Positions 8,142-57,896 of a stretch of 64,000 nucleotides of DNA are shown here, piece by piece (the stretch's first letter is position 1; each line of letters begins with the position of its first letter). The notes beneath the pieces were generated by a model. It was not told where the DNA came from, ran no database searches, and was given only the letters and a program-made list of their open reading frames with translations. Source of the stretch: a virus. The position numbers were made by a program, and so were the translations under genes. The DNA is taken from positions 1 through 64,000 of the IMG/VR virus record IMGVR_UViG_3300006916_000044. One strand, written 5' to 3'.

Positions 8142-8813
8142 ATGACAACAATAGGTGAAGCAATATCTAGAATACGTGGTCAAATAAAAGCTGGCAGTCA
8201 AGATGCTTTTACAACAGACAGATATATTTATAGCTTAATTAAAAAATATGCTCAGATGTTTATGCGTAGGCAAGATAATGCTAATAAACTAATGAAGTTT
8301 AATAGTGTTTGGCAAGAGCTTAAATATGTTAGTTTAATTGAAGTAGATAAAATAGAAGCAAATTGTGTAGGATTAAGCAGTGGATGTACTATTAAAAGAA
8401 CAGAAAAAAAATTACCTACATTTATGCAAGGGTATTGGGGACCATTAATTAGAACAGTTAGTTCAATAGATGGTTCTGTTGAAGTACAACCAACTCAACC
8501 TGGTACATACACTTCAATGTCTAAAACAAAAACATTTAAATATAATAAAACAAAATACTTTTGGTTTTTAGATGGGTATTTATATTTACCTAATGTATCA
8601 TGGGATGCAATAAAGTTAGAAGGAGTATTTGAAGAAGATATAGCAAAATGGACATGTGATACAGATGATGACTGTGTACCAAGATATTTGCAAAACCTAT
8701 ATATACCTGAATTTTTATTTACAGAAATAGAAAATCAAATATTAAATACTGCTATGAACACTATGAAAGTTCCAGCAGAAGATGGTAATAATAATAAAAA
8801 TATAAATAGGTAA
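8142..8813 (+). CDS. crAss-like ring/tail-accessory-type protein, 223 aa
   Basis: The 223-residue product starts with an amphipathic helical block (TIGEAISRIRGQIKAGSQDAF, then DRYIYSLIKKYAQMFMRR), followed by a mixed beta region with Cys residues and a KWTC-x-TDDDCVPRYLQ segment, ending in a helix. This plan, with length about 220 aa and position directly before the 300-aa protein and the muzzle-type gene, matches a conserved protein of the crAss-like tail module thought to form one of the rings below the portal. The match is by motif memory and gene order. Its TAA overlaps the next ATG by one base (TAATG), so translation is probably coupled. A general head-tail connector is the alternative reading. 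Confidence 0.75.
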   Translation: MTTIGEAISRIRGQIKAGSQDAFTTDRYIYSLIKKYAQMFMRRQDNANKLMKFNSVWQELKYVSLIEVDKIEANCVGLSSGCTIKRTEKKLPTFMQGYWGPLIRTVSSIDGSVEVQPTQPGTYTSMSKTKTFKYNKTKYFWFLDGYLYLPNVSWDAIKLEGVFEEDIAKWTCDTDDDCVPRYLQNLYIPEFLFTEIENQILNTAMNTMKVPAEDGNNNKNINR

Positions 8814-9715
8814 TGAGTGTATCACATAAATATAGAACGTTTGATGAATTATTAGAATCAGTTAAAGTAGACTTTAATACATATAATTTAGAGGGAATGA
8901 TAGAACCTCAACAATTAATTAAAGTTGCTATTAGAGTTAACTATGATCTTGGTTTACGTATTAACAGAACAAATAGTGCTGTAATAGATATAGAAAATAA
9001 TAAAGGACAATTACCATCAGATTTTCAAACATTAAACTTTGCTGCTATTTGTGGTAAATATAGAATTAATACAACTACTCCATCGGGCACTACTACAGAA
9101 ACACAACCTACTACTTATACTCCTGAGCCTGGTTATACAACTCCTTGTGAGGATGGTAAAACATGTAAAGATGTTTGTGTAGTAAAACCATGTAAAGATG
9201 ATAGCTCAAAAGATTACATTGTTGTACAAAGAGTAGGTCCAAGCACGTATAGAGAATTTCATACTTTTATTCCATTAAGAATTGCTGATACATCTGGTGC
9301 GTATTGTACAACAGAATGTCCTAATCTTGGTGTAAGTGCTGTAGATTTTGCTGAATTAAAAGATGGTTTTATTTTAACCAATTTTAAATCAGGTAAAATA
9401 TTTTTAAATTATCAAGCTACATTAGAGGATGAAGGTGGTAACCTTTTAACTTTAGATCATCCTTATTGTAATGAATATTATGAGTATGCATTAAAATCAC
9501 GAATATTAGAAAATATGATATTTGCTGGTGAAAATGTAGTTAATCAATCTCAATTGATTGAACAAAGATTACGTGCTGCTAGAAATAATGCTTTAGGTTT
9601 TGTTAATACTCCAAACTTTGAAGAGTATAGAAAAATATGGGAAGTTAATAGAAAAGCACAGTACAACAAATATTATGATATGTTTTCAAGTTTTGCTACA
9701 AATAGAAGAAGTTAA
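8813..9715 (+). CDS. crAss-like ring/tail-accessory-type protein, 300 aa
   Basis: The product starts with a conserved-looking block, FDELLESVKVDFNTYN, then a helix ending in VNYDLGLRIN and LPSDFQTLNFAAICG. This series (FDELL, DLG, LP-x-DF-x-x-L) recurs in crAss-like and flavobacterial phage structural proteins in the tail-accessory position. The middle holds a Thr/Pro/Cys-rich insertion (residues about 90-135) with several Cys, and the C-terminal part is helical (LKSRILENMIFAGEN, then LIEQRLRAARNNAL). No catalytic motif is visible. It is translationally coupled to the 223-aa gene and followed after 2 bases by the muzzle-type gene, so the three are likely made together for the tail barrel. Which ring it corresponds to cannot be decided here. 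Confidence 0.75.
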   Translation: MSVSHKYRTFDELLESVKVDFNTYNLEGMIEPQQLIKVAIRVNYDLGLRINRTNSAVIDIENNKGQLPSDFQTLNFAAICGKYRINTTTPSGTTTETQPTTYTPEPGYTTPCEDGKTCKDVCVVKPCKDDSSKDYIVVQRVGPSTYREFHTFIPLRIADTSGAYCTTECPNLGVSAVDFAELKDGFILTNFKSGKIFLNYQATLEDEGGNLLTLDHPYCNEYYEYALKSRILENMIFAGENVVNQSQLIEQRLRAARNNALGFVNTPNFEEYRKIWEVNRKAQYNKYYDMFSSFATNRRS

Positions 9716-9717
9716 AA

Positions 9718-12700
9718 ATGGCTAAAAAGCAGCAAAAAAATACAGGTAAAAAAACAGCTCCATCTCAGAAGACTGATATGATAAACACTAACATGTTTAT
9801 CAAAGGTATGAATAAAGATACTGACTCAAGTTATTTTGATAAACAAAGCTGGTATCATGCCCGTAATTTAATAAATAATTCTATTGATGGAGATCTTGGT
9901 GTTGTTGGTAATGAGCCAGCAAATTTAAGATGTGCAGAAATTCCTTATACTATTATAGGAGGTATTCATTTATATGGAGATAAATGGGTTATATATTCTA
10001 CTAATGATACATTAAGTGAAATAGGTTTATTTGATGACAGCAAGTGTGAATACACAATGTTAGTAAATGATCCTTGTCTTAATTTCAATAAAGATAATTT
10101 AATTATAGGTGCAGCTAAAGAAAACTTTGATTGTACTTGGCAAGTATATTGGGATGATGGATTAAATCCTTCTAGAACATTAAACATTGATAATATACCA
10201 TATGTGCAAGTTGTTGATCCAAATACACCTGCAGGATCTTCATGTATAAATTATATAAATGTTGAACCATTACAATTAGATTGTGAAAAAATTAGATTAG
10301 CTCCATTAATTGATATACCATGCATTGAATTAGAAAAAGCAGATCAAGGAGGTTTATTAGAAAATGGTAGTTATCAAGTATATGCTGCATATTGTATAAA
10401 CGATAGACCTGTAACAGATTATTTAGGTATTTCTAATATTCAACCTATTTGGTCTAGAGAAGATACACAAGGTTCTTTAACAATAAAACTTTCTAATTTA
10501 GATACAGAATTTGAACAAATTAGTATTGTTGTTAGATCTAGAATAAAAGGTCAAGCTACTAATACAAAACTAGGAATTTATAGTACTCAAACTCAAACAA
10601 TAAATATTGATTATATAAATCCTGAACTTCCTAAATTATTATCTAGTGAACTACAAAGAAGAATTCCAACATATGAGAAATCTGATGGAATGTTTGTTGT
10701 TAATGATTATTTAATTAGGTCACAACCAACAGAACAATTTGATTTTAATTATCAACCTTTAGCTAATAATATTCAAACATATTGGACTTCTACAGCTTAT
10801 CCTTCTGCTTATTATAGAAATGGTGGTAACAAACCTACACTACTTAGAGATGAGCAATATGCTTTCTTTATAAGATTTGTATATAATACAGGAGAAAAAT
10901 CTAAATCATATCATATTCCTGGTAGAGCTCCAACAGCTGCTGATCAAGTTGCTGTAGCTGGTGCTGGAAATAATTTTGATAATTCACCATTATGGAGAGC
11001 AGGTAATACTGCTACACAAACTCCTGGTGATCCTTTTGTAGCTTCTTTGATAGGAACTACAACAGATGATGGAGGAACAATTACAAATGGTGGTCAAATG
11101 GGTTATTGGGAATCTACAGAAGTATATTCTCCAACTGATCCTGTAAGATGGGCTAATTTATGTGGTTTACCTATTAGACATCATAAAATACCTGATGAAA
11201 GCACTGGTTTTGTAGGAACATCATTATTAAATCCACTTTCTGAAACTATTAATATTCTTGGTGTTGCATTTAATAATATTGCACCACCTTTAGATAATGA
11301 TGGTAATGTAATACCAAACATTATTGGTTATGAAATATTAGTTGGTAGTAGAGCTGGTAATAGATCCATTCTAGCTAAAGGTATTATTAAAAACATGTTT
11401 AGGTTCAGAAGAACTCAAAGTGATGGAACTGCTCCAGGTAATGGAGCTACTAATGCTGCTTCACAATCAACTGGTACTGGATTAATGCCAAACTATCCTT
11501 ATAATGATGTAAGAACTGATCCTTATTTAGTTGGTAGAGATAGCAATAATCAAACACAATTACCTTGGTATGCTCAATTTGCAACACCACCAGAAAATAA
11601 CTGGCATAGAGGTAATATGCCACAAGCAGATGGAACAGGTTTAGCATTTGTTGATCCATTTGCACATACTTTTCATTCACCTGAATTAAATTTTTCTAAG
11701 TTATATTTAAATCCTACTGAAGTTAAAATTTATAAAGTTAATAGTGCTAATGTGGTAGGTAGATTTAAAAAATCTGAAGATCATCCAAAAGCAAAACTAT
11801 TAAAAAATAGAGCAGCAACAATTGCTGCATTAGTAGGTGTTGGTTATGCATTAAATGAAATGCGTGGTAAAAGAGATTATAAAATTGATACCATGCGTTC
11901 TAATTCTGTTGGTGAATTTGGAGCTTATGCTGTTGGATCAGGTACACACATGTCACCATTTATTGGTCCTGGTACAGCACAAGCTGCTGGTAACGTTGGT
12001 GTGTCAAGTGGTTCTCTTTGGATTGGAGCAGCAGCAGATTTAGCTTTTAATAGTGCTGTAGATATTGCTGCTATATTTGGTGCAGGTAAATTAGCAAGAA
12101 CAGTAGGTACACCTATTTACCAACAAGTTGAACTTGCATCTTCTGCACTTGCAGCAGGACACTTAGGACCAAGAAGAGAAGTTGTATATAACGGTAGTGA
12201 TTTTTCATCAGTACCATCAATTATGTCAATAGCTATTGGTATAATTTCATTTTTAAATTATGTTGCAGTAGGTGGTGATAAGATTATTGATTTAATTATG
12301 AATCTTATTGGCTTCCAAGATTATGCAATGAAGTATATATCACATGGATATTATAATCAAGAAATAGCTTATCAAGGTGTACAATTTAGAAATCAAATTC
12401 AAAGAGCTAGATATATTAAAAGTGCATTACAATCTTTTGATGGTGTAGATGTAATTCAAAATAATTTAAGACCATCAACTGTTGTATTTAGAACTGTAGA
12501 TAATTGGGTTTCATCAAGACCAGATGTAAATGGATTAATAGATGATACTAAATTTACAATAGGTTCACAATGTGCAGGTAATGGAACAAGTAGTATGAGC
12601 TGGTATAATCCAGGAGAAGAAGTTGAGTCAACTGCATTTGCAAACTACGGTGCTTTTAAAACTTTAATGGATAATCAATATGGTCAACTAGACAGTATTA

Positions 12701-15700
12701 TTCAACTTACTACACAAAATTGTTATTATTTTAGAGATCAACAAAATATAGATACAGATGGAAATTTAATTCCAATTACACCAATAGATAGTTTTAGTAC
12801 AGATACAGTATATGCAGGTGATTCTTATGTAACAAGATATACTGAAAAAACAATAATGCCATTTTTCTTTACTTTTTTAAAAGAAGGAAGAGATGGTATT
12901 CCATTTGATTATTCTAAATATGCAAACGTACCTTTTCCTAGATTTTGGATGAATACGGAAAAATTCCGTATGGATCAATTTGTAAGACCAATAACAACTT
13001 TAAGTTTTAATTGGAGTAATACTGAGGCATTACCTTCTGGGTATTATAATATGGATTGTCCAGAAAATGGAGGATATTGTGGTGCAACTCAATCTATAGC
13101 ATTTGGTGAAGGCGCATTAGCAGGATCAATTTTGCAAGATGGAACTACAAGTAATAATAATAGTACTGTAACTAATAATGGTACTGGTCTTCCTGGTGCT
13201 CCAGCACTTGGTGGTGGTCCTGCATTTACAGATTTAGCAGATCCATGGAATCAAGCAAATAATAATGCAGCATGGAATAATAGATTTTTAGTTGTAAATG
13301 TGGGTACTAATCTTGACGAAGTTCCTTATACTATAAGTATGAATTCTAATAATACAGAATGGACAATTTTAGGAGCAACTAGCGATACTGTAACATTTAC
13401 CCCTGATCCAAGTATAGCAACTATTTCAAATCCAGTTACAGTAAATCCAATGTTTGATTTAACAATATCTGATCATGGATATGCTGTTCCTTTGAATGCT
13501 GGAAATAATCCACAACCTAATCCAAGCGGATGTCCTGCAATTGGTTTTGTAGAATTTGTTGCAGAAGATTGTGATTTACCATTTGTACCTTCTACATTTT
13601 CTGGTGAAGGTACAGTAACTAATTCAAGATATTTATTTGATTGGTCAACTGGTCTTATTGTTGGAATGACAAATTTAGCTCCAGGTTCATATGCTTCTGA
13701 TAGTACAGCTGTGGTTCCTGGTCAAAATCCTGGTGATCCAATTAATGTTAATGATATAATTAATAATTTTTCTCAATTTAATTTTTCTAGTGATCCAGTT
13801 AGTGGTCAAATATCAAATTGTGGTAGTGGTTGTGGTACATCTACTTTACCAACTAATGCATTTCAAGTAGTAAATGGAGCTAACACATCAGGAGATGTTC
13901 AAGCTGGAGGTCCAGGTAATATTGATACAATAGTTGATGATGCTCAAAGTGCTGGAGAAAATTCTGGTTTTGCTGCAGGTAATACACAAATAAACAACTC
14001 TAATGCTACAGGAGGTTTATTTGTAATTAAAACAGGATTCATGTATACTCACAATTGTGGTATAAATGATTTTTGGGTTGAGTCATCAATGAATCTTGCA
14101 TTTAGAGATTATGAAGATGTACCAAGAAAACAACATTATGATGATGAAAATTATACAGACCTTGTAGAATTATTTCATACTAAAATTGTAAACTTTGATA
14201 ATTATTATTTTTATGATAGATCAACATCAGTAGATAAATTCTGGGGTTCATCTTGGGGACATATTCAAGAAAGTTATTATGATCCTATTGTTGCTGAGAC
14301 ATGTTTTATTAAATATCCTAAAAGATTATTATATTCAATTCCAGCTACCGGATTTAAAGATAAAGCACAATTACAAAGTAAGAATGATGCTAAACAAGAT
14401 TTTTGGAGAGTTTATTTAACTGAAAATTTTAGAGATTTTAAAGATAAAGTAACTACTATTAAACCAATAAATGAAACGGGTGCGTTAATATTTTTCCCAA
14501 CAATGTCTCCTAAATTGTTTCAAGGACAAGATAGATTACAATTATCTAATACAAAACTTACAATTGGTGACGGAGGATTATTTAGTCAAGCTTTTCAAAA
14601 TATAACAAACTCAGATATATCACATGAATATGGATCTTCAGAAAGTGCAAGAAGTGTTTTAAATACACCATCTGGTATTTATTTTGTTTCACAAGCACAA
14701 GGTAAAATATTTAATTATAAACCTGGTGGAGGATTAACACCTATATCTGATATAGGCATGAAGTGGTGGATGAATAAATTTTTACCATCAAAACTGTTAG
14801 AATACTTCCCTTTAATAGAAGATTGTCCTCAAGCAGTAGACAACCCTGTAAATGGTGCAGGTGTACAAACTGTATATGATCCAAATAATGATATAGTATA
14901 TTTCTGTAAAAAAGATTACTTACCATTACCACAGTATCAAGGTAATGAATGTATCCAATATATTCCTTGTGAAGGATTTGTTTATAATGCTACATTATGT
15001 GAAGGATTAGATCAAGTTCCTTCATGCCCTGATGGATACACATTAATACAAGATCCAGTAACAGGACAAAATGTATGCCAGTTAATGTATACTACACCAC
15101 CAATTCTTACACAAACAATAGATTATAATTATGGTGCTGCAATTGGTATAGGTACAGCTGCTGGACTTGCTCCTATAGGTAATAGTAGATTTGGTAGAGA
15201 TTGGCCAATTGTTATTGATAATGTTGCAGTTGATGGAATGCCCTTTGATCAAGCTGATCCTAGTACATGGCATTATATAACCGATAATGGAAATAATACT
15301 TTTTGGAGAAATTCTCCAGCTAATAATATGAATGGTATTGTTAACAGATTAATGCGTGGTGCTAATAATACTCCTGCAGGTCCATTTGCAACAGTAGAAT
15401 TTCAAATTAATATTCCTATTAGTAAAGTTGTACATCTTTTAGCAGCAGCAGATAATGGATTTTCAATTGATATAGATACTGGTGGAGGTTATACTACATT
15501 TGTAAATCCTGTTGATGCTACTTTATTTGGAGCTGTTACTAATGGAGGTGGTATATGGAACCCTCAAGCAGTTGCAGGTGGAAACTTTGCTTGGTTAAGT
15601 GGTGATCAACAAGAAGCATCTCAATATTCTAAAGCTTGGATATATAAATTAGAGCTACCTCAAGGATGTACAAAATTTAGAATGACAGGTACTAATGCTG

Positions 15701-17988
15701 GTTTATTAGCATCTCTTGCTGGTCTTGCTGCTGCAGTTATTGATGTTGAAGATTGGAATGATATACAAAACGCTACTTCATGGGAAGAATTACCTAAAAT
15801 ATGGGATTCAGAAAATTTTGATTTTATAGTACCAAATAGTTTAGAAGGTTTTACATGTAGTGAAGGATTCCAACAATTTACAGATGGTACTGATGGTAGT
15901 ACAGAAGCTTGTCCAGTATGTAGAGAAGAAGTTATAAGATATGATTGTGAATGTGAAGTTGATCAAACATCTGGAATACCAGGAGTTTTATTTGGCATAT
16001 GTCCAGTTGGTACAGATGGTGATGTTGGTAGTTCATATTGTCAATATGAAGCATATGAAGATGTAACACTATTAGATCAAACATTCCCAATAGAAGTACA
16101 AAACGAAAACTATTTTAAAGATATTTCATGGACATTAAGTTATGATCCAAAAGCAAAAGCTTGGTTATCATTCCATGATTGGCATCCTGAATTAGCATTT
16201 AATAGCATAAGACATTTTTTAACTTCAAAAACAGAAACAACTGATGTACCACAATGTCCTCCAGGTTATACTTGGAACGGTCAAGAATGTTGTTTGCAAT
16301 TAAATCATGAAGAATTAGCAGAAGTAACTGTAGATGAATTCATATCTCAATTAGAATTTGTTGATGCTACTGTAAATACTTGGGGTGAAACAGTTGATGT
16401 TGCTATTGTAATTGATGATTCAGGATCTACAACTCCAACACCAATGCCATCTCAATTAGCATTTGTTGAAGAATTTATAAATGGTATGACTCCAGGTATG
16501 TCTACTGGTGCAAATGTAGTAAGAATTAGTCATGGTAGATGGTCTACTAATAATGCTGTTGTACAAGCAATGACAAATGTTGCTGCTACAGCAATAACAA
16601 GTTTAGGTTTACCAGTAGGTGCTGGTGGTGGTACAATTCCTTATCCAGGTACTGGAGGTGGTACAAATTATAATCAAGCAGTTGCACTAGCTAATACTTT
16701 ATTAACAGGTAGTACTGCAGATAAAAGAATTGTATTATTTATAACTGATGCTACTCAAAATTCTCCAGCAAATCCAAATGATTTTACAAATGCAACTCAA
16801 TGTATTGCGGTATTTGCTAATGATGATGCAGTAGAATTAGCATGTAATAATTATGATGGTAACTTAAATACAATGATAACAGCAACTGGTTTAGCTGCTC
16901 CTCATAATGTTGCTACATGTGTTCCAACAGGTAATACTCCTCGTAATATGTATCATGTAGGTGGTCAAATACCTTCAGGTCAACCAGGATCTTTTGATTC
17001 AGTTGCAAATAATATTGTAAATGATTTAACAAATTGTAATTGTCCATCTGGTACAGTATTAGATACTAGTCCTGCAAATAATCCTTGTGAACCTGCACCA
17101 GCACCAGCTCCTAATTGCATTAGTTGCTCATGTCCAAGCGGATATACAATGATAGGTGATTGTAATAATTCAAATGAACCTCCTGTATGTAGAAAAATGA
17201 ATTGTGAATGTGAGTCACCATATTTTAATAATGATGAGACACTAACAACAACTGGTCAATGTGATGATATATATTTATACTATAATGAATTAACAGGTAT
17301 AGGAGATCCATCATATGTAAATAATGATCCATTATTCTGTCAATATGAATATATAGATTGTGTTCCTGCTAATTATGAAAACGGGTATTTCTGGAAACAT
17401 AATGTAAGAACAGATTTATTTAATAATTACTATGATAAAAATTATCCATGGGAAGTAGATATTATAGAACAAACTGGCCAAACAGTTACAACTCTTAGAA
17501 GTGTTGAATATCAAATGGAAGCATATTTATATCAGAATGAAGGTAAAGATAGATTCCATGATTTAGATTACAATTTTGATGAAGCTGTTATTTATAACTC
17601 TGAACAAGTATCAGGATTATTAGAATTAGTTTTAGAACCTAAAAATAATGTTCAGTTATCAATGTTATATCCTATTGTTGGACCAAACAGTATACAAACA
17701 TTATTTAGTAAAGTAGAACAAAAATATAGATTTAATCAATTTTTTGATGTAACAAATGATAGAGGTGAGTTTAGTGCTGCTACAAATACAATTTGGCAAA
17801 CAGATTGGGATGGATATGTTAGAACATTGAATCCAGCTAATTTAGATTATAATAAACCTCAACATCAAAGAAAAAAGTTTAGACATTACTTTAATCATGT
17901 ATTATTAAGAAAATCTGATGAAGCTGCTACAACAAGAAAAATGTTATTAAAATTAGAAAATACTAAATTAAATATATCTTTTAGATAA
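9718..17988 (+). CDS. Giant muzzle-type tail protein with embedded VWA domain
   Basis: 2,756 residues. After a Lys/Gln-rich start, residues about 20-65 read NTNMFIKGMNKDTDSSYFD and then YHARNLINNSIDGDLG, a signature of the large tail protein of crAss-like phages that closes the tail barrel (muzzle). The body is beta-rich, Asn/Gly-rich and Cys-rich. Residues about 2225-2400 form a von Willebrand A-type domain with a complete MIDAS: D2233, S2235, S2237, T2316 and D2344 (LFITDAT). Shorter Cys-rich segments with GYT-x-x-x-x-C flank it. A hydrophobic Gly/Ala-rich stretch lies near residues 700-870. VWA domains bind protein ligands through a divalent metal, so this part may contact a receptor or another tail protein (inference). 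The length far exceeds what I know for crAss-like muzzle proteins, suggesting domain insertion. Its stop overlaps the next start (TAATG). Confidence 0.8.
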   Translation: MAKKQQKNTGKKTAPSQKTDMINTNMFIKGMNKDTDSSYFDKQSWYHARNLINNSIDGDLGVVGNEPANLRCAEIPYTIIGGIHLYGDKWVIYSTNDTLSEIGLFDDSKCEYTMLVNDPCLNFNKDNLIIGAAKENFDCTWQVYWDDGLNPSRTLNIDNIPYVQVVDPNTPAGSSCINYINVEPLQLDCEKIRLAPLIDIPCIELEKADQGGLLENGSYQVYAAYCINDRPVTDYLGISNIQPIWSREDTQGSLTIKLSNLDTEFEQISIVVRSRIKGQATNTKLGIYSTQTQTINIDYINPELPKLLSSELQRRIPTYEKSDGMFVVNDYLIRSQPTEQFDFNYQPLANNIQTYWTSTAYPSAYYRNGGNKPTLLRDEQYAFFIRFVYNTGEKSKSYHIPGRAPTAADQVAVAGAGNNFDNSPLWRAGNTATQTPGDPFVASLIGTTTDDGGTITNGGQMGYWESTEVYSPTDPVRWANLCGLPIRHHKIPDESTGFVGTSLLNPLSETINILGVAFNNIAPPLDNDGNVIPNIIGYEILVGSRAGNRSILAKGIIKNMFRFRRTQSDGTAPGNGATNAASQSTGTGLMPNYPYNDVRTDPYLVGRDSNNQTQLPWYAQFATPPENNWHRGNMPQADGTGLAFVDPFAHTFHSPELNFSKLYLNPTEVKIYKVNSANVVGRFKKSEDHPKAKLLKNRAATIAALVGVGYALNEMRGKRDYKIDTMRSNSVGEFGAYAVGSGTHMSPFIGPGTAQAAGNVGVSSGSLWIGAAADLAFNSAVDIAAIFGAGKLARTVGTPIYQQVELASSALAAGHLGPRREVVYNGSDFSSVPSIMSIAIGIISFLNYVAVGGDKIIDLIMNLIGFQDYAMKYISHGYYNQEIAYQGVQFRNQIQRARYIKSALQSFDGVDVIQNNLRPSTVVFRTVDNWVSSRPDVNGLIDDTKFTIGSQCAGNGTSSMSWYNPGEEVESTAFANYGAFKTLMDNQYGQLDSIIQLTTQNCYYFRDQQNIDTDGNLIPITPIDSFSTDTVYAGDSYVTRYTEKTIMPFFFTFLKEGRDGIPFDYSKYANVPFPRFWMNTEKFRMDQFVRPITTLSFNWSNTEALPSGYYNMDCPENGGYCGATQSIAFGEGALAGSILQDGTTSNNNSTVTNNGTGLPGAPALGGGPAFTDLADPWNQANNNAAWNNRFLVVNVGTNLDEVPYTISMNSNNTEWTILGATSDTVTFTPDPSIATISNPVTVNPMFDLTISDHGYAVPLNAGNNPQPNPSGCPAIGFVEFVAEDCDLPFVPSTFSGEGTVTNSRYLFDWSTGLIVGMTNLAPGSYASDSTAVVPGQNPGDPINVNDIINNFSQFNFSSDPVSGQISNCGSGCGTSTLPTNAFQVVNGANTSGDVQAGGPGNIDTIVDDAQSAGENSGFAAGNTQINNSNATGGLFVIKTGFMYTHNCGINDFWVESSMNLAFRDYEDVPRKQHYDDENYTDLVELFHTKIVNFDNYYFYDRSTSVDKFWGSSWGHIQESYYDPIVAETCFIKYPKRLLYSIPATGFKDKAQLQSKNDAKQDFWRVYLTENFRDFKDKVTTIKPINETGALIFFPTMSPKLFQGQDRLQLSNTKLTIGDGGLFSQAFQNITNSDISHEYGSSESARSVLNTPSGIYFVSQAQGKIFNYKPGGGLTPISDIGMKWWMNKFLPSKLLEYFPLIEDCPQAVDNPVNGAGVQTVYDPNNDIVYFCKKDYLPLPQYQGNECIQYIPCEGFVYNATLCEGLDQVPSCPDGYTLIQDPVTGQNVCQLMYTTPPILTQTIDYNYGAAIGIGTAAGLAPIGNSRFGRDWPIVIDNVAVDGMPFDQADPSTWHYITDNGNNTFWRNSPANNMNGIVNRLMRGANNTPAGPFATVEFQINIPISKVVHLLAAADNGFSIDIDTGGGYTTFVNPVDATLFGAVTNGGGIWNPQAVAGGNFAWLSGDQQEASQYSKAWIYKLELPQGCTKFRMTGTNAGLLASLAGLAAAVIDVEDWNDIQNATSWEELPKIWDSENFDFIVPNSLEGFTCSEGFQQFTDGTDGSTEACPVCREEVIRYDCECEVDQTSGIPGVLFGICPVGTDGDVGSSYCQYEAYEDVTLLDQTFPIEVQNENYFKDISWTLSYDPKAKAWLSFHDWHPELAFNSIRHFLTSKTETTDVPQCPPGYTWNGQECCLQLNHEELAEVTVDEFISQLEFVDATVNTWGETVDVAIVIDDSGSTTPTPMPSQLAFVEEFINGMTPGMSTGANVVRISHGRWSTNNAVVQAMTNVAATAITSLGLPVGAGGGTIPYPGTGGGTNYNQAVALANTLLTGSTADKRIVLFITDATQNSPANPNDFTNATQCIAVFANDDAVELACNNYDGNLNTMITATGLAAPHNVATCVPTGNTPRNMYHVGGQIPSGQPGSFDSVANNIVNDLTNCNCPSGTVLDTSPANNPCEPAPAPAPNCISCSCPSGYTMIGDCNNSNEPPVCRKMNCECESPYFNNDETLTTTGQCDDIYLYYNELTGIGDPSYVNNDPLFCQYEYIDCVPANYENGYFWKHNVRTDLFNNYYDKNYPWEVDIIEQTGQTVTTLRSVEYQMEAYLYQNEGKDRFHDLDYNFDEAVIYNSEQVSGLLELVLEPKNNVQLSMLYPIVGPNSIQTLFSKVEQKYRFNQFFDVTNDRGEFSAATNTIWQTDWDGYVRTLNPANLDYNKPQHQRKKFRHYFNHVLLRKSDEAATTRKMLLKLENTKLNISFR

Positions 17989-20900
17989 TGAAATATAGCA
18001 AAGACGGATATAAAAGAAATAGTAAGGATAGAAATAATCCTTTTAATATAATACCATCAGGTAATATAACTATGAAAGGTGTAGACTTTCCTGTATTTGG
18101 TATGGATAACTTAGGTTATAGTAAAATTATGATGCCAGGTACTAATTATATATTTCCTGGTAGTTCTGTTTTTGAAGTTCCATTAGCAAGAGTTGGTATA
18201 GAATTACCAATATATCAAAATAAAGGAGAAGTTAATCTAGCTGAAAAATATAAATATATACCATCACAATTCTTTACTGTACCAGAAGGAGAGTTTACAT
18301 ATGATTGGACAAATAGAGATGGCACAAAAGAAACTAGAACCGGTGTTTATAATCCACAATGGTTTGAAGCAGGTTTTGAAGATTCAGATGCTTATTATGC
18401 TTTAAGTGATGATGAAAAAATTAATTTTGCTAATAATCCATATATAGATCAATACTCTGGTGATATGCTTCATCCTCTATTGTGGGATGAAGAAAATTTA
18501 GAAAAAGAAAATAAAAAAAGATTTCTTCATGGATTATATCAAAAAATGTATACTAAACAAGATGACGGTAGTTACATTTTAAATCCAGAATATGAAACTG
18601 CACTAGGTGATGCTAGGTATCTTACTACAACAGATGTTCCTTATGCAGATATTCCAGATGAAGGAGTATTTTCTAGTACATTAGCTGCTGATCCAAATAA
18701 TGAAATGTGGTATAAAGAGTTAAAACCAGAGCTTTATACTGAAGGTAAAACAATGACAGGATACGCATGGGATGAAGATAGTCAAGAATATGTATATACA
18801 CCAGATATGACATATAAAGATTTTCTAAAACAGTACAAATACATTAAAGATATGCCTGGAATGGAAGGTATTTCTAGAAGAGATTATAAAAAAAGATTAC
18901 AACAAGGAGATATATATTGGCCTCAACTTCAAAGTCCAACGCAAATAGCTCAATTTGATCAGCAATATAAATCAATAATGAATCCAATTAAAAAGGAGGA
19001 TATAGAATTACAAAAAGAATTTTTTGATAATGCTATAAGTGGAGATTTATATAAACAAAAATTAATTGATCAGGGTTATGAAAATGTTGATGAAATCATA
19101 AACATGAGAAAAAATGCTTTAGCTAATTCTAATGTAATGTATGATCAAGACTCTTCATCTTATTTAGATGAAGCTTATGATCGTGATCCTAATTTAATTC
19201 AAAAAATTCTTGATAAAGTATCTTTCTTAAATGATCAGTATAAAGAGTCAGGTATAGATTATGATTATAAAGATGTGTTTTTTGCAAATCCTTATTATAC
19301 AAGAATAGGTGAAGAAAGAACAGATGCAGATTATGATTATGATAGCATAAAAGCAAGAAATAATGCTGAACCAAATATATATACTGATGATCAATGGGGA
19401 GCTATAATACAATCACAATATGGCCATACAGATGTTCCAGCATTTAGAAATCTGAGTAAACAAATAATGCAAGGTGAAACAGGTAGTAGAACTTATACAT
19501 CAGGATCAAGACAAGGAGATGTTGTATTAGATCCAAGACAAATTCAAGGTTTAAATATAGATATGGGCTTTGAAGGAACTTCCCCTCAATTAAAACAACA
19601 ATTACAAAATGTATTAGCTCATGAGTTAGGTCATCAAATGGGTTCTAGTAGAAATGATATAGATTATAATTTAAATGAAAATGATTATAATTATATACAA
19701 GACAGAATGAATGTTTCTGATGATGCAAGTTCTCATGATCAATCTGTATATGAAAGAAAAGCAGATTTAGAAGCTTTAAGATATGATATGTATAGAACTA
19801 TTGGATATGATTATAGTAAAGATGTTTTAACTCCTGAAGTACTTGAACAATATAAACAATACATTAAAGATAATCCTAGTCCAAATTTACCAACTGAAAG
19901 AATGTTTCAGTTTTTTAATGATGAAGATATTATAGATATTAATAATACTGTAGCACAAAATTATGAAATAGGTGATGACATTTCTGATAATCTTAATTTA
20001 TATTTTGATTTACCTTTAACACAAGCTAAATATGGAACAGAAGATTTTGATGGAAAATTATCTAAATTACAAGATAAAATTAATGTTTATTTAAATGACC
20101 CAAGTGGAAGAGCAAAAGCTTTTTCTGACAGTGATGAAGAATTAACAAACATTGATAATTTAAGACATGCAATGGCAGGTAGATATACTGCTGAAGAACT
20201 TCAAAATTTAGTAAAAGCAATTCCTTATGGAATTGGTAATATCTTAGATACTACAGGTGTTGACAAATTATTTGGATTTTTAGGTTCTAATGCACTTGGT
20301 GTAGGTCATGAACTTAGTACATTAGTTAAAGATGAAAGACCTTTTTTAGCAGCTCTTCAAGAAAGTGGAGAAGATGTTTTTAATAATTTTGTTGGATCAA
20401 TAGTTGGTTCAACAGACGTAAGTTCTGAAAAAAAAGATAATATACTACGTTATCTTTCAGATAATAATCTTTTACCTGATGGATATGTACAAACTGATCC
20501 AGATTTTTCAGAAAATGTATATTGGAAAAATGAAGATGGTTCTATAAAAAAACCTAATTTTAAAAGTTATAAAGATGGTGGTGAAAATGATGAAGACACT
20601 CTAGCTTATTCTAGACTTTTAAAAAGATTTATACCAAGTGCTGCTGTTCTTGCAAAAAATCCTTTACTAACATTTGCAGCATCAATGCTTTATCCTAAAG
20701 GTGCAGGAAAAGGTTCAACTTTACAAACGCCTTCTTTAGAACAACAATATCAAAATTATTTAAATACTACTACTCCTGAAGAAAGAGTAAAAAATGAATT
20801 ACAATATGAACTAATGACAGGTAGACCTTTTTATTTTAATCCTATACCAATATCAAATATTAAAGAACACGGAGGTGAACATAGTGGTTTTGATTGGAAA

Positions 20901-22709
20901 GGTTATTTTAAAGGAGAGCAAGGTTTTATTCCTGATTATGGAGGGAAGTCTACAACACAAACATATCTAGATAATAAAGACGATGTACAAAAAGGACTTG
21001 ATTATGTATCTATGACAGGTATACCAGTAGTAAGTCAATTTGCTGGATATGGTAGTGCAGGTATTGATTTTGGTGATGCAGCTATGGCATATGCACAAGG
21101 TGATTATGATACCGCAAAAAAAGAATTTGCTAAAGGAACTACAGGAGCTGTAATATCTACAATTCCAGGTGGAAAAACTGTAGCTGGATTAACAAAAGCT
21201 GGTTTACAAGCAACTGGTAAAAATTTAGCTAAAGGTACAATAAAAGGTGGAGTAAAAAGTACAATCAAAAATGCAATAAATGAAACTGATGATACACCTT
21301 TATATGCTGAAAATCTTGAAGAACCAATTTATGGAGGTATGCTTCCAGAAACTACGGTAACACCAAAAACAAAATATGGTACAGAGTTGCCTATAGCACA
21401 AACAGGTACTTTTAAAACTTTAGCACAAAAAGGATTAAATGCATATAACAAATATATATTTAACAAATCTAAAGATGCTTTTGGTATATCAGGACGTATG
21501 CTAATGGATGATCTTACACTTCCTGTTGCAAATAGTGCTAATTTAATGTTACATAGATCATTAGATAATACTTATATTCCTAATTTATCTGGCTCAGACT
21601 TAGATAATTATCATAAATTAATAACTCAATATACTATAAATTCTGAACCATTTAAGTTTTCTTCATTTCCAGAAAATCAAGAAGTAAGTTTTCCTATGGA
21701 ACCTTCTTTTATGAATACAGATGGAACTCCTCTTTACACTTTTGATAATAGATTTGCAAGAGAATTAGATAATATTATTAATTCAAATAAAGTTATATTT
21801 AAAGGTGATCAAAATAAACCTCTTACATTAGTAAGAGAGTTTGAAGGATTTACTGATGTTCCTGTTGGCAAAGATTTTTATTTTACTAAAGATTATTATG
21901 GAGATATGAATAAACTTAATTCATATATAGATGCATTAAAATCTGGAAAAACTTTTAATCTTGGTGATATATCTTCATGGTCTGTAGGTGCTAATACAGG
22001 TTTAAATAGGTTTGGAAGTAATAGATTTATTATTGAAAATTTTCCATTAAGTCAAAATGCATTAATAAATAAATATGACTCACCATTATTTTCAAAAAAT
22101 CAAAAAGGTATATTCCGTGAAAGAGAATTATTATTGCCATCAACAACACAATTTAAAGTAAAAGATATACAATTTAATGTACCAAGAAAACCTTATCATT
22201 ATACTAAAGATGATGCTGGTAAAATTACAGACTTTAGTCCACATTATGGTGCTGATATTATATTAGATGTACAAAACAACACTAAAAATATTAAATTCAA
22301 AAAGGAAGGTGGACAAACAAAATATAAAAAATCTGTATTTAATAAAAATAAAATGTCTTTATCTGATCCTAGCAGATTAATAAATCAAATGCTAAAACAA
22401 GGCATATTTAAATCTGAGTTTAAAATGGGAGGTGAACAAAAATTAAGTAATGGATATACAATTAAAAAAGAATTTGATAATACAAATAATATACCTTTTA
22501 TATCATATACAAACGAACCTGATATAGAGGGGAGAGTTTATTATGAATCTGATGATGATGCTCAAATAAATGTTATTGATATAGAAACAAAATTAAATCA
22601 AATAAGATCTAAACATGAAAGAACTAAAAAAATAATTCTTAAACGTAGAGAAGGTAAAGTTTTATCTAATACAGAAAAACAGCATTTAAACTCATTAGGG
22701 TTATTGTAG
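17988..22709 (+). CDS. Virion cargo-type protein: zincin plus C-terminal ADP-ribosyltransferase
   Basis: 1,573 residues. A gluzincin-like site is present: HELGH at 545-549 and a downstream ERKAD (E589) as the likely third zinc ligand. Residues about 1000-1085 are Gly/Ala-rich (FAGYGSAGIDFGDAAMAYA, then KFAKGTTGAVIS-like text) and resemble the pre-toxin region of polymorphic toxins. Residues about 1180-1420 look like an R-S-E ADP-ribosyltransferase: R1283 in LTLVREF, S1330-W-S1332, and E1378-R-E1380 in RERELLLP. Such enzymes transfer ADP-ribose from NAD to a target, as T4 Alt and ModA do in host takeover. Several xGGE/xGGQ motifs (residues 863-866, 961-964, about 1440, 1480-1483) punctuate the chain. 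It follows the muzzle gene directly and ends in TAG-TAA. Delivery with the DNA and a host target are inferred; the target is unknown. Confidence 0.75.
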   Translation: MKYSKDGYKRNSKDRNNPFNIIPSGNITMKGVDFPVFGMDNLGYSKIMMPGTNYIFPGSSVFEVPLARVGIELPIYQNKGEVNLAEKYKYIPSQFFTVPEGEFTYDWTNRDGTKETRTGVYNPQWFEAGFEDSDAYYALSDDEKINFANNPYIDQYSGDMLHPLLWDEENLEKENKKRFLHGLYQKMYTKQDDGSYILNPEYETALGDARYLTTTDVPYADIPDEGVFSSTLAADPNNEMWYKELKPELYTEGKTMTGYAWDEDSQEYVYTPDMTYKDFLKQYKYIKDMPGMEGISRRDYKKRLQQGDIYWPQLQSPTQIAQFDQQYKSIMNPIKKEDIELQKEFFDNAISGDLYKQKLIDQGYENVDEIINMRKNALANSNVMYDQDSSSYLDEAYDRDPNLIQKILDKVSFLNDQYKESGIDYDYKDVFFANPYYTRIGEERTDADYDYDSIKARNNAEPNIYTDDQWGAIIQSQYGHTDVPAFRNLSKQIMQGETGSRTYTSGSRQGDVVLDPRQIQGLNIDMGFEGTSPQLKQQLQNVLAHELGHQMGSSRNDIDYNLNENDYNYIQDRMNVSDDASSHDQSVYERKADLEALRYDMYRTIGYDYSKDVLTPEVLEQYKQYIKDNPSPNLPTERMFQFFNDEDIIDINNTVAQNYEIGDDISDNLNLYFDLPLTQAKYGTEDFDGKLSKLQDKINVYLNDPSGRAKAFSDSDEELTNIDNLRHAMAGRYTAEELQNLVKAIPYGIGNILDTTGVDKLFGFLGSNALGVGHELSTLVKDERPFLAALQESGEDVFNNFVGSIVGSTDVSSEKKDNILRYLSDNNLLPDGYVQTDPDFSENVYWKNEDGSIKKPNFKSYKDGGENDEDTLAYSRLLKRFIPSAAVLAKNPLLTFAASMLYPKGAGKGSTLQTPSLEQQYQNYLNTTTPEERVKNELQYELMTGRPFYFNPIPISNIKEHGGEHSGFDWKGYFKGEQGFIPDYGGKSTTQTYLDNKDDVQKGLDYVSMTGIPVVSQFAGYGSAGIDFGDAAMAYAQGDYDTAKKEFAKGTTGAVISTIPGGKTVAGLTKAGLQATGKNLAKGTIKGGVKSTIKNAINETDDTPLYAENLEEPIYGGMLPETTVTPKTKYGTELPIAQTGTFKTLAQKGLNAYNKYIFNKSKDAFGISGRMLMDDLTLPVANSANLMLHRSLDNTYIPNLSGSDLDNYHKLITQYTINSEPFKFSSFPENQEVSFPMEPSFMNTDGTPLYTFDNRFARELDNIINSNKVIFKGDQNKPLTLVREFEGFTDVPVGKDFYFTKDYYGDMNKLNSYIDALKSGKTFNLGDISSWSVGANTGLNRFGSNRFIIENFPLSQNALINKYDSPLFSKNQKGIFRERELLLPSTTQFKVKDIQFNVPRKPYHYTKDDAGKITDFSPHYGADIILDVQNNTKNIKFKKEGGQTKYKKSVFNKNKMSLSDPSRLINQMLKQGIFKSEFKMGGEQKLSNGYTIKKEFDNTNNIPFISYTNEPDIEGRVYYESDDDAQINVIDIETKLNQIRSKHERTKKIILKRREGKVLSNTEKQHLNSLGLL

Positions 22710-22737
22710 TAAAATTAGTTAAATTGGTTAATTTTTA

Positions 22738-22753
22738 GTATATTAATAATGTA
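22738..22753 (+). promoter_or_regulatory. Candidate phage promoter motif GTATATTAATAATGTA
   Basis: Identical at 15 of 16 positions to the element at 4547 and preceded by ATTTTTA. It lies in a 66-base gap inside an otherwise nearly gapless run of giant genes and ends 22 bases before the ATG at 22776, so it may start a separate transcript for the distal cargo genes. Confidence 0.5.
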
Positions 22754-22775
22754 ACATGTTGTATATAGACAAATT

Positions 22776-25715
22776 ATGAAAAATAAAAGAAGAAATAAAA
22801 ATATTCAAACTTCAGAAGTTTATTCAATGCTTCCTGAATATCAATATGTTACAGGCATGCCAAGATATAAAAATGGTGCAGAGTATTTTAGTTATGATGA
22901 TTACATGACTGATTCAGTATTAGCACAAGTTGGAACAGAAACACAACTTCCACCAAATTTAATTAAATATAACACAAACTCAGAAAATCCTGGTAATACA
23001 CTTTTTGGAACTAAAGTAGAATATGGTGTACCAGAATTTTTACAAAAAAGTAGTCCATTATCTTCTCTTCTAACTGGAATAGGTAAGTTTCAAAATACAG
23101 GACAAAGATTTAAAAATGCATTTAGAAATATAAATCCTAAAACAGGTAACCCTTATAGCAAAATGGATTTTGCTAGAAATACACTTACTAATACTACAGA
23201 TGAAAATGTTTTAATTAATATGCCTAATCTTATCAGTGCTTATGATAAAAAAGGAAATATTATAGATGAAAAAAATACTGCTGAAAATTTATTTATAAAA
23301 CAAAATAAAGCTAAAAGTGATTATTTTAATACATTAGCAAAACAACATTCAGAAACATATGTTGATAATGAAGGAAATCCGTTATTAAGTCAACAAACAA
23401 TGGATGAATTTGGAAATGTTACTTATACTAATCCAGATGGAAATAGAACAGTTGGTGATAAAGCACAAGAACATCTTAAAGATACAAATACACAAAGAAT
23501 AAAATATAATGATGACTTTACAGAAGTAACAGAATTTACAAGATATGATGATGATGGAAACAAACAAATAGAAACATATGATCCAGATAAAAGATATAAG
23601 GAAATGTCATATACAGATACATTTAATATTCAAGATGAATTGAATCTTGGTACTGGATCAATATTAGGATCAGAAGGTTCCCAATATCTTAAAGGTGGAG
23701 GAGATTTTCCAAGAAATAATCTTGCTGCATTTATATACGGTGGAGAAGAAATGCCTCAAGCACAATTTGGGTTTAAAGGAAACTATAAACCGTATACACT
23801 AAGAGATGCTAATCTTACTGTAGGAACTAAAACAATAGCTCCATTAAATAGAATAACAAAGAATTTACCATATGGTACTGTAGACAAAGGTATTCAACAA
23901 GGATATGGATTTAATCTTAATATACCTCTTGTCTCAGGTCAATTTCTTAAAACACCAACATCACAATTAACAGGTAATATAAATTTAGGTAATACTGCAT
24001 ATAGAACACCTGGTAGTAATAGATATGCTACAAAGTATGTAGATTCAGATATGCAAATTATGCAGGATAATGCTCCATCACATTTACATAATGTAGAGTC
24101 TGCATATGGTGCATACCAAGATTATTCTGCTCCTTATATGACTAATGTGGGTACACGTGTTGGTATTGGTGGTGACTATACATATTCACCTTCAGGACTT
24201 GGTAGAGGTACTGCTCTTGATTTAGGTGCTGATTTTGGATTAAATTACAGTAGAGGTGAACTTGGTTCTGATTTTGCATATGTAGATAAATTTGATAATT
24301 TCCATGGTTTACCAAATGACGCAGCTATAAATATTTTTGAAACGGTAACACCTAGTCCTACATCTATGATGGGTCTTGATGCTGGAGTATATGCAGGTTT
24401 AAGAAATCAACGTATAGGACTTTCAGGTGGTTTATATGGTAATATTGGTGGATTAAGAACAACAAATCCAGGAATGCGTTTAGGAGTTAAAGGTAACATA
24501 CCATTATATAGAGGAAAAGGAAACATGCGTGGATTCAATGTTTCAGCTACTCCAGATGTAAGTTATGATTTTCAATCAGGTGCACCTAGATTTAATTTTG
24601 GAATTAGTGCAGGACTTAGAGATGGTGGAGAAAATTTACAAAAATATCAAGGTGATGTAGGCCCAAGTGAAACAAGTGAAAAAACATATACATTTAATGG
24701 TCAACAAGTTAGCAAAGAAGAGTTTGATAGACTGTCTAAAGAAGCACAAAATGAACTTAACGCTGGTACACCTGATTGGGCTAAACAAGGATCATTTGGA
24801 GAAACATTTAAACCTTATACCTTTGCAGATAATAATGAAATTACTTCATCTGATATAGACGAAATTACAGTTTCAGGTGCAAATAATGAAGAAGTTAGTT
24901 CAACAGTAAATCCTGTTATGACTACTCCTTCTATGGATGAAATTGCTGGTGGTACTCCATTAGATTTAAATTTAGGAACTCCAGATTATATGAATCCTCT
25001 TGGGATAAATCAAGAAGTACCAACTAATCCTAATCAAATTACTACATATGAAGTAAGTAATGAAGGTACACCTACTGATAATACTAATATACCAGTTGTA
25101 GAACCACAAAGTCCAGCTGCTCCTTTAACAATGGACTTTGGTTTAAAAGATCTTACTGATGAACAAAAAGCTAATATGACTGATGCAGAAATAAGAGCTT
25201 ATGAAAGAAATGATAGAGCAACTGAAATATATAATGAAGTAAGTGCAGGAATAAATACCGGTGCTACTGGAACAGCTAAACAATTACTACAAGAAGGATC
25301 TAAAGTAATTACAGATGCAGCTGATATTATTAATCCTATTCTTGAAGAAGGCAACCGGGTGGTAAATGAATTAGAAACAAAAAATGAACAAGATGAAGTT
25401 AGTGACTTTATGAATCCTATTGAAGCAAGTAGAGGTGATAAAGGTGATTTTGATGTTAACACAGGAGTATATAGAGCTACAAGTTTAGGATATGGTGATG
25501 GACCTAGAGGTCAAATTGCACAAATGGGTGCTGAAACAAATGGTATGCCTGAACCAGATTATAAAAGTTTGCAAAGATTTTTAAATCAAGCTGTGGTTGC
25601 ATATAATCCTCAAACGTTAATGATGCAAGCAAAACATGGTGATGAAATTATTGATGCAGATATGAAACTAATAAAAGATTTAATGGCAGCAGGTGCTGAT
25701 TTTGAAATTATATAA
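22776..25715 (+). CDS. Virion cargo-type protein with beta-barrel-like domain
   Basis: 979 residues, no signal peptide. The N-terminal third is basic and charged (MKNKRRNKN). Residues about 330-618 look like an outer-membrane-barrel sequence: repeated short strands alternating Gly/aromatic/hydrophobic with polar residues (GTRVGIGGDYTYSP, ALDLGADFGLNYSRG, GVYAGLRNQRIGLSGGLYG, then FNFGISAGL). Past residue 620 it is acidic and Thr/Asn/Pro-rich and probably disordered, ending in a helical segment. Motifs such as GGGD, YGGEE and DGGEN match the punctuation in the neighbouring cargo genes. It has its own upstream promoter-like motif and ends 2 bases before the next ATG. A barrel carried in the virion could help DNA or proteins cross the outer membrane, but this is inference; a soluble beta-sandwich or fibre is also possible. 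Confidence 0.7.
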   Translation: MKNKRRNKNIQTSEVYSMLPEYQYVTGMPRYKNGAEYFSYDDYMTDSVLAQVGTETQLPPNLIKYNTNSENPGNTLFGTKVEYGVPEFLQKSSPLSSLLTGIGKFQNTGQRFKNAFRNINPKTGNPYSKMDFARNTLTNTTDENVLINMPNLISAYDKKGNIIDEKNTAENLFIKQNKAKSDYFNTLAKQHSETYVDNEGNPLLSQQTMDEFGNVTYTNPDGNRTVGDKAQEHLKDTNTQRIKYNDDFTEVTEFTRYDDDGNKQIETYDPDKRYKEMSYTDTFNIQDELNLGTGSILGSEGSQYLKGGGDFPRNNLAAFIYGGEEMPQAQFGFKGNYKPYTLRDANLTVGTKTIAPLNRITKNLPYGTVDKGIQQGYGFNLNIPLVSGQFLKTPTSQLTGNINLGNTAYRTPGSNRYATKYVDSDMQIMQDNAPSHLHNVESAYGAYQDYSAPYMTNVGTRVGIGGDYTYSPSGLGRGTALDLGADFGLNYSRGELGSDFAYVDKFDNFHGLPNDAAINIFETVTPSPTSMMGLDAGVYAGLRNQRIGLSGGLYGNIGGLRTTNPGMRLGVKGNIPLYRGKGNMRGFNVSATPDVSYDFQSGAPRFNFGISAGLRDGGENLQKYQGDVGPSETSEKTYTFNGQQVSKEEFDRLSKEAQNELNAGTPDWAKQGSFGETFKPYTFADNNEITSSDIDEITVSGANNEEVSSTVNPVMTTPSMDEIAGGTPLDLNLGTPDYMNPLGINQEVPTNPNQITTYEVSNEGTPTDNTNIPVVEPQSPAAPLTMDFGLKDLTDEQKANMTDAEIRAYERNDRATEIYNEVSAGINTGATGTAKQLLQEGSKVITDAADIINPILEEGNRVVNELETKNEQDEVSDFMNPIEASRGDKGDFDVNTGVYRATSLGYGDGPRGQIAQMGAETNGMPEPDYKSLQRFLNQAVVAYNPQTLMMQAKHGDEIIDADMKLIKDLMAAGADFEII

Positions 25716-25717: not shown

Positions 25718-28700
25718 ATGAAAATTAAATTAAAAAATATACCAGAAGGATTTGAAATAAAAAACGGTAGGCTAATTAAAAAAATGGCTGAAGGTGGTAC
25801 CGTAAATAATACTTTACAACCTGTACCACGTGATGAAGCTAATGTTGAAGCAGAAAAAAATGAAACTGTTTTAACTGATGCAGATCAAGATGGTTTTTAT
25901 GAATTATATAATATTGGTGGTAAAAGACATTCACAAGGTGGTACACCATTAAACTTACCAGAACAATCTTTTATTTATTCTGACACAAGAAAAATGAAGT
26001 TCACAAAAGAAGAACTTAAAGAACTTGGTGTATCAGCATCTAAAAGATTAACTCCTGCAGCAGTTAGTAAAAAATTTCCTATTAACAAATATATGGAAAT
26101 TCTTAAAGATCCTAGCTCAGACGACATTGCAATTCAAAGTGCTGAGGCTATGATAAAAAAGAACAAAATAAAACTTTCACAAATTGCTTTTATGCAAGAA
26201 AGAAAAAAAGATTTTGAAGAAGGTTTACCATTAGCTGCATATCCATATCTATTAGAAAATGGTATAGATCCAAAAGAGTTTGAAATGAAGATTGAACAAG
26301 CAAAACAATCTGAACAAAAAATGGCTCAAGGTATGCAAGAAGGTATGCCACCACAAGGACAACCATCACCTCAAGAAATGGAACAAATGGCCATGGCTAT
26401 GCAACAGCAAAATCAAGGTATGCCTCCTCAAGGTATGATGCCTCCAATGCCTCAAATGGATATGGCTATGGGTGGTATGGAATTACGTGATTTTATATAT
26501 GGTAAAGAAGGTAAAGAAGTACCTACTAACAAAGGATTTCAAGCATTACCACCAGCAGTACAAAAAAATATTATTGATAATATGCAAAATGGTGGACAAC
26601 CGTCAATTATACCTGCAGAAATGATGGAGCAGTATAATGCATGGAGGACAAAAAATAGATTAAAAGACATACCTGAAATACAGATGATGTTTTTAAATAC
26701 TATGAATAACCAGGCTCCTATAATGCCAGGTCATTCTACTATGTTTAAACCTATTGGACCTATGCCAGATGGTTTAAAAGAAATGAAATCAGGAACATTA
26801 CCTGGTTGGAAAGAAACATTAAAAGGTTTTATTCCTGATGATTATGATTATGTAGTAGATGATCCAATGCAAGGAATGAAGGATTTTATAAATTATATAA
26901 ATCCATTTGAAAAAGGTGGTGAGTTTAAACCACACATGATGTTTGATCCTAAAACAGGAAAAGGATACATGGCTAATAAAATGGAAGATCATTTACGTAT
27001 GGCTGACATGGGTTATCTTCATGAAGATGAAATGAAGAAAGCTGGTAAAAAAATGCAAAAAGCTTCTTATGGTGGACCAAAAGGAGAAGCAGCTTATTTA
27101 GAAAGAAGAGATGCTGCTATAAAAAAAGCTATGGCTGAAGAAGCTCAAATGGGTACAGAAACACAACAACTTACTGCTGAGCAACAACAAATGCAAGCAT
27201 TAGTTGATGCACAACAACAATTAGCTCAACAAAGGCAAATGATTATGATGGCTTATCAGCAAAATCCTGAACAGTTTTCTAGTCCTGAAGCTCAAGCCAG
27301 TCTTGAAGAAAGATTAATGTTGTTAGATCAAAACTTAAATCAAGTACAACAACAATTAAAAGTATTGCAAGAAAAAGAATTTTTGCAAGAAACAATAATT
27401 CCTTTATCTGAGTTTGTAGGAGAAACAAATACTCCAGCAAGTTTAAATAATCAAAATTATGATTTTTTTAATCCTAAGTTATTAACGGCAAGTAATGGAA
27501 AAGAGCTACCAACTTATCAAGAAGGAAATGGTGAAGATTCTTTTTCTTATGAAAGCACTGATGATTCTGGTTATCCAATATCATTAAATCCTTATTTTAG
27601 AACATCCCCAACTAGAAGATATATAGATGGTCAAGATAATCCTAATTATGATGCAGAGTTTGAAAGTAATATAGATAAAGGTATAGATGTTCATCAAAAC
27701 TTTTATGATATTATGATGCAAGATAACTTTAAAGGAGTTAGAGATGCGTGGATAAAAGCATATAAAGATTTAGATGATCCTAATAAAATAACAGGTAAAT
27801 CAGATAAAGAGTTATATAAAGCATTTAACGATATGAATATATTGTTTAATGCAGCATTTACAGCTGGTGTAGGTTTTAAAGATGCTGATATTAAAGAACA
27901 ATTAAAAAGAAATGCAGAAAAATTAGGAATGGAAGTTCCTAGTGAAGAACAAATTAAAATGTATCAAGGTATGTATAATGCCTTAGCTACTGTAAAAGAA
28001 ACTGGTACTGATGAGCAAAAGAATTTACTAAAACAAGTTAATGTAAATTATAGTGATAACACTGGTGGTGCTTATGAAATTGTACCAGGTAGTGGTAAAT
28101 TTGTTTCTAAAATTGATGGTAAAGTTGGTGATAACACAAGTCAACAATTTGTTTCTGTAACTGATGCTGAAAGAGAAGAAACAACTGTAGTTGAATATGC
28201 TTGTGATGAAAAAACCAAAAAAGCAAAGATACAAGAGTGTATGGAAAAAGGTCTTCCTTTTGAAGAAGCAACTTGTGAATGCGGTAAAGAACCAGTCATA
28301 ACACCAGCAGGAGAAATTCCACCATATTTAACGTTTCCAGGTGATGACATGAAAGTGGGTGCTTTAGCGGCACTTACAATGCAGAGAGATAAAAAATATG
28401 GAAGAATGCAAAACTATGATCCTCTTATGAGAGATCCTGGTTATGTAGATGATAGAGCTGCTGTAGCTGCTCAAACTGCTTTAGCTAATCAAGCTATGGC
28501 TGTTTCTAGAGATCCTTCTATGGTACAAGGTGCTGCGCAAGATCAAATAGATAAAATTCAAGCTAATAGATATGCAACAAACACTAAAATATTTGACAAC
28601 ACTCAAGCTTATAATGTTGCAGAAATAAATAAAGCTAGGCAAATGAATGATCAATTTATGTCAGATTATATGGATATGGTTAATACTGTAGATCAAGAAT

Positions 28701-57895: not shown

Positions 57896-57896
57896 A

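Follow-up and report, generated by a model that had tools for sequence, protein, structure and literature searches.

The window examined here is a stretch of 64,000 nucleotides comprising the first 64 kb of the 91,370-bp virus record IMGVR_UViG_3300006916_000044. Three adjoining genes are of central importance:

8813..9715, + strand: crAss-type tail ring protein 1 (PF24228 CrAss_Ring_1, E 1e-7, above the cut-off)
9718..17988, + strand: muzzle protein of the tail tip, containing a VWA-like insert (PF25731 crAss_MUZ, E 1.2e-28)
17988..22709, + strand: putative modular virion-type effector protein of 1573 aa, recognised by its open reading frame (ORF), its junction with the muzzle gene and its relatives

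The genes for ring protein 1 and the muzzle follow each other in this order and both products match above the Pfam cut-off, which identifies a crAss-like structural operon. The effector ORF starts within the stop codon of the muzzle gene, sharing 1 nt with it (TAATG junction). No ORF of at least 80 aa lies in the gap from its end at 22709 to 22776, the position of the next structural-type gene, and no adjacent immunity gene was seen.

The muzzle protein is very long (2756 aa), and its insert at residues about 2227-2355 matches VWA_2 with an E-value of 6e-4, which is below the Pfam cut-off; it possibly represents an adhesion module. A muzzle-like protein annotated only as hypothetical (30% identity, E 2e-23) is encoded by the cyanobacterial Leptolyngbya phage Lbo-JY46 (L196, PP438436), which suggests that the crAss-like tail type extends past the phages of Bacteroidota. 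Downstream of the cargo genes, an ORF of 5148 aa (32604-48050, + strand) occupies the position of the crAss virion RNA polymerase subunits. A gene resembling those for B12-dependent (class II) ribonucleotide reductases is located at 54223-56082 on the minus strand. The gene at 57885-60359 (+ strand) encodes an 824-aa protein with a Por_Secre_tail domain for type IX secretion sorting (E 1.5e-13). Judged by its sequence, this phage product looks as if it were addressed to the T9SS of the host, and the domain indicates a host from the Bacteroidota.

The 1573-aa protein is built from the following parts:

17988..18197, + strand: conserved N-terminal header (residues 1-70), which recurs in 43 other proteins encoded after the muzzle and in phi4:1 gp40
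18195..20042, + strand: zincin metallopeptidase module (residues 70-685) with HELGH at 545-549 and the E in YERKAD at 588
20052..20552, + strand: exchangeable module (residues 689-855), 49-68% identical in G030, G031 and G073
20883..21356, + strand: Gly/Ala-rich, pre-toxin-like module (residues 966-1123), 40-50% identical in L118, L119 and L124
21372..21410, + strand: linker motif KYGTELPIAQTGT (residues 1129-1141), fitting the family linker consensus and located directly before the following domain
21441..22274, + strand: very probable R-S-E ADP-ribosyltransferase (ART) domain (residues 1152-1429), assigned from invariant R/SxS/ExE residues, fold searches and a strand signature
22275..22706, + strand: conserved C-terminal tail of 144 aa (residues 1430-1573), common to L114, L115, L118, L122, L123 and L124

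The zincin module gives weak matches to the zincin families of Pfam and recurs with 79% identity within a different protein of 2149 aa in G002 and G004. This protein (P0002, L116:609-7058 in G002) is likewise modular, with the same linkers, the zincin module of the window and a weak lysozyme-like (Pesticin) match. The Gly/Ala-rich module has no match in Pfam and also precedes the linker motif in one of the three phages which share it. Among the six proteins with the C-terminal tail of the window, the middles differ. The polypeptide joins zincin, ART and further modules in the manner of the multidomain polyvalent proteins, and its constant N-terminus followed by an exchangeable effector region, the header recurring in 43 proteins with different middles, corresponds to the organization of polymorphic toxins. 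The initial annotation had described such a toxin-like layout with an upstream zincin site, a Gly/Ala-rich pre-toxin-like stretch and an ART at the end. Site and stretch are both real and the layout is sound as regards constant header and exchangeable middles, but the ART is not terminal, as the 144-aa tail follows it. The domain itself, placed at 21540-22260, is present and better bounded by the coordinates given above.

The catalytic residues are exactly those pointed out in the initial annotation, namely R1283 (21834), S1330-W-S1332 (21975-21983) and E1378-R-E1380 (22119-22127) followed by LLLP, with spacings of 47 residues from R1283 to S1330 and 48 from S1332 to E1380. The bare pattern of R, S-x-S and E-x-E is uninformative alone and no more than chance would provide: a loose form of it turned up in 457 of 500 shuffled versions of the protein, and 457 of the 1220 ORFs of the comparison set contain it as well. 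Relatives were collected by using the muzzle N-terminus as an anchor and then searching for the protein in their records. Two of them (G001 and G002) are 46% identical to the window over the domain, and R1283, S1330, W1331, S1332, E1378 and E1380 are invariant in both, while the middle residue of E-x-E varies (R1379 in the window, T in both relatives). Across the three sequences, R, [ST]-x-S and [EQ]-x-E are conserved in this order, as is characteristic of R-S-E enzymes. The strand following E-x-E, ELLLPSTTQFKV, has what we take to be the usual ART form; when 717,291 aa of ORFs were scanned for the corresponding pattern [EQ]xE[VIL]LLPxx[TS]x[FYLI]x[VI], the three ART proteins were its sole carriers.

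The proteins of G001 and G002 (509 and 513 aa) consist only of the equivalents of window residues 1-66 and 1152-1429 and the C-terminal tail. The ART is therefore a separate, movable module, and it is the sole recognisable enzyme of these two proteins. The known family comprises three sequences, two of which are 91% identical, and searches of viral and genome contigs for further ART relatives returned only the same two. Searches against Pfam, PHROGs, NCBIfam and PDB sequences gave no credible family match for the protein or the ART domain, and PF03496 (ADPrib_exo_Tox) had no match in the window protein and none above the cut-off in 50 relatives. A PDB profile match to NosD (E 0.006) was rejected as spurious, since it spans only the N-terminal half and includes no catalytic residue.

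Two AlphaFold models of the domain were calculated from different query sequences, model 1 from the window and model 2 from G002, and both are of poor confidence (pLDDT 38.6 and 41.3; pTM 0.39 and 0.41). In both, the R is part of a predicted strand, and a further strand begins with E-x-E. When these weak models were compared by Foldseek with 350,542 PDB chains, ARTs were ranked first in each case. The 50 matches listed for model 1 comprise ART toxins, i.e. C3larvin (E 0.015), iota Ia, CDTa, C2I, Vis, C3bot, ExoT and SpvB, and five entries of anthrax lethal factor, which contains an ART-like domain of its own. For model 2, ranks 1-4 are ART effectors (6dre, 6drh, 6gnn). TM-scores were at most about 0.36, E-values were 0.015 or higher, so that no PDB match reached 0.001 with either model, and a fold search of the ART model against BFVD gave no match. 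As no single fold match is significant, these searches support the ART assignment and stop short of proof. Taking the invariant catalytic residues, the unique strand and the ART-topped fold searches together, we strongly infer an ART fold for residues 1152-1429. The domain is very probably an R-S-E ADP-ribosyltransferase, as initially proposed, and presumably catalytically active. In one pairwise comparison each, dN/dS was about 0.7 for the ART and the zincin versus about 0.2 for the header; fast evolution of the enzymes combined with slow evolution of the header agrees with a role as conflict effectors.

The position behind the muzzle is occupied by comparable proteins in many phages. The same header of about 70 aa opens the post-muzzle gene in 43 further relatives (about 41-86% identity), and in 41 of these genes the ATG shares one base with a stop codon, just as it does in the window. 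The header-bearing proteins range from 409 to 3329 aa (median 1391) and share only patches outside header and tail. Their middles contain mostly peptidoglycan enzymes and zincins, and their C-terminal tails are of two types. A scan of 47 post-muzzle proteins, which took in four without the header, detected SLT in 13 proteins, LysM in 12, PG_binding_1 in 7, YkuD in 5, SET in 2 and Amidase_2 in 1, and HExxH was present in 13 of 44 post-muzzle proteins. The SET matches, indicative of protein methyltransferases, are above the Pfam cut-off and belong to post-muzzle phage proteins encoded at L118:2014-5928 and L121:7234-10011.

A further common feature is a linker of about 13 residues with the consensus KYGG[SE][LI]P[KM]AQ[DN]GxE, which occurs in up to six copies per protein (e.g. 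in L135 and L143). Its AQxG portion was counted 74 times in 60,629 aa of post-muzzle proteins versus 11 times in shuffles. The structural ORFs upstream, 234,491 aa in total, contain it 25 times versus 56 times in shuffles. The linker is strongly enriched in the cargo-type proteins and depleted in the upstream structural proteins. It could mark where the protein is processed or where recombination joins modules, or it could mediate binding. A strict module border was rejected, because 12.7% of the shared-module ends lie within 25 aa of a linker versus 5.9% at random, which is a modest bias. Self-processing by a zincin of the same protein was rejected as a general mechanism, since many linker-bearing proteins are devoid of HExxH. 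Somewhat short of an even chance, in our estimation, is a broader reading of these data, by which a large group of aquatic phages of the crAss-like kind would reserve the gene behind the muzzle for interchangeable payloads. The header would load the fused enzyme into the tail or cargo compartment, the KYGG[SE]LPKAQDGxE linker would be the point of processing or exchange, and enzymes that degrade the wall, peptidases, methyltransferases and ARTs that modify the host would take turns as payload.

A connection to the virion is provided by cultured phages. The whole 1573-aa protein gave no match in a tblastn search of phage records, and the header alone matches the Cellulophaga phages phi4:1 and phi17:2 (40% identity, E 4e-5). 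The phi4:1 protein gp40 begins with the header, and the neighbouring gp41 combines a tail lysozyme with two HExxH motifs, the second of which is located within a stretch resembling the zincin of the window (E 1e-6). Both gp40 and gp41 carry the GenBank annotation ‘experimental MS/MS proteomics analysis’, which accords with the virion-type nature ascribed to the window protein at the outset. In crAss001, the post-muzzle product is cargo protein C1. It sits partly within the tail and is presumed to be the first protein ejected, and passage of crAss cargo into the cytoplasm is likewise presumed (PMC10172136). Since header and zincin occur in virion proteins of phi4:1 and C1 of crAss001 has the same gene position, packaging of the window protein is likely by homology. 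For two genes further downstream, homology was suspected by eye, i.e. of 25718-29176 to crAss001 gp45 or phi4:1 gp40 and of 29236-32601 to gp46, and neither comparison was significant.

These observations are probably best explained by a virion-carried modular effector of a crAss-like phage, with enzymatic activity, target and delivery being predicted from homology. The protein would be made within the late muzzle operon and attached by its header of about 70 aa to the tail or cargo compartment. Upon infection, the zincin peptidase, the pre-toxin-like segment and the R-S-E mono-ADP-ribosyltransferase would be ejected into the host. There, the ART domain (1152-1429) would bind NAD+ via R1283 and S-W-S, and E1378/E1380 would direct the transfer of ADP-ribose to a side chain of a host protein early in infection, as in the case of T4 Alt, presumably to the benefit of the phage. 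Arginine is predicted as the modified residue from the E-x-E motif.

The main rival is an envelope-penetration machine, in which the enzymes act in the wall or periplasm and the ART is a captured fold, either inactive or without a function in NAD-dependent takeover. The domain content of the post-muzzle proteins (SLT transglycosylases, LysM, PG_binding_1, YkuD and Amidase_2) and the tail lysozyme with two HExxH motifs in phi4:1 gp41 are in favour of it; with cell-wall enzymes in the slot of most relatives, action in the periplasm, a compartment presumably devoid of NAD+, is conceivable. Yet every catalytic residue of the ART was retained though half of the domain has changed, and in the G001 and G002 proteins no other enzyme is recognisable. 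The SET domains in the same slot are better suited to a cytoplasmic modifier, and crAss cargo is thought to reach the cytoplasm (PMC10172136). We regard this explanation as unlikely.

The location of the gene in a structural operon would also agree with an ART that is made late and used uninjected in the infected cell, for instance to modify proteins of phage or host while particles assemble, or to act against competitors, and T4 ModA and ModB are ARTs made after infection (PMC9503650). It is made very unlikely by the header, which is shared with a virion protein detected by MS/MS and which relatives fuse to many wall enzymes that are most sensible as virion lysins. A chance match to the R-S-E pattern in an unrelated fold could account for the frequency of the bare motif in shuffles, the absence of a family-level sequence match and the low confidence of the models. 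Conservation of precisely the catalytic positions, the unique ELLLPxxTxFxV strand and the first rank of ARTs in both fold searches of the PDB render such a coincidence highly improbable, even more so than late use.

If the virion-carried effector is real, Alt-like ADP-ribosylation delivered by the virion extends to the crAss-like phages, a very abundant group in which early host takeover has so far been known mainly through the virion RNA polymerase. The 70-aa header and the linker are a simple handle to find many unrecognised injected effectors, and laboratories could perhaps use them to pack proteins of choice into phage tails.

In comparison with known systems, the classical example of an ART injected by a phage is T4 Alt (PMC9503650 surveys the Alt/VIP2 ARTs), and the likeness drawn by the initial annotation is reasonable, since the predicted R-S-E enzyme would likewise be carried in the virion for early modification of the host. 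Unlike Alt and the Alt/VIP2 ARTs, it has no family-level sequence match, and whereas Alt is a stand-alone head protein, it is embedded in a multi-enzyme protein of the tail or cargo. This virus-wide survey of ARTs makes no mention of crAss-like phages (PMC9503650). The best fold matches, although below significance, are bacterial ART toxins and interbacterial effectors (C3larvin, Vis, CDTa/iota Ia and the toxin-immunity pair 6dre/6drh), with which the domain shares the S-x-S and E-x-E signature; in contrast to these, it is encoded outside a bacterial secretion locus and no immunity gene was seen. Polymorphic toxins (PMC3482391) similarly possess a constant N-terminal delivery part, a pre-toxin-like segment and exchangeable effectors. 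They differ from the window protein, in which an immunity partner is lacking, a conserved C-terminal tail follows the effector and the phage tail or cargo takes the place of a secretion system. Like Crassvirus cargo C1 (crAss001 gp45), the window protein is encoded immediately behind the muzzle, contains several GG motifs and is likely ejected, a likeness of position and motifs; the product of 25718-29176, two genes downstream, appears more C1-like by eye, although that comparison is not significant.

The closest parallel are the polyvalent proteins of phages and conjugative elements, injected multidomain proteins which join zincins, ARTs and peptidoglycan enzymes or lysozymes (Iyer et al. 2017, PMC5512222), and for which co-injection with the DNA and proteolytic release of the modules have been proposed (PMC5512222). 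As in these, one large phage protein joins zincin and ART, and related slot proteins bear peptidoglycan enzymes. Because injected proteins of this composition are already described, the device is a variant and no new kind, contrary to the new takeover device first envisaged. It differs from them in the conserved header of the muzzle operon, in the recurring GG..LPKAQxG linker and in an architecture swapped as a cassette in crAss-like phages, which is unmentioned in PMC5512222. What is new is that crAss-like phages carry an unassigned ART family, encoded beside the muzzle in an exchangeable slot which the header defines.
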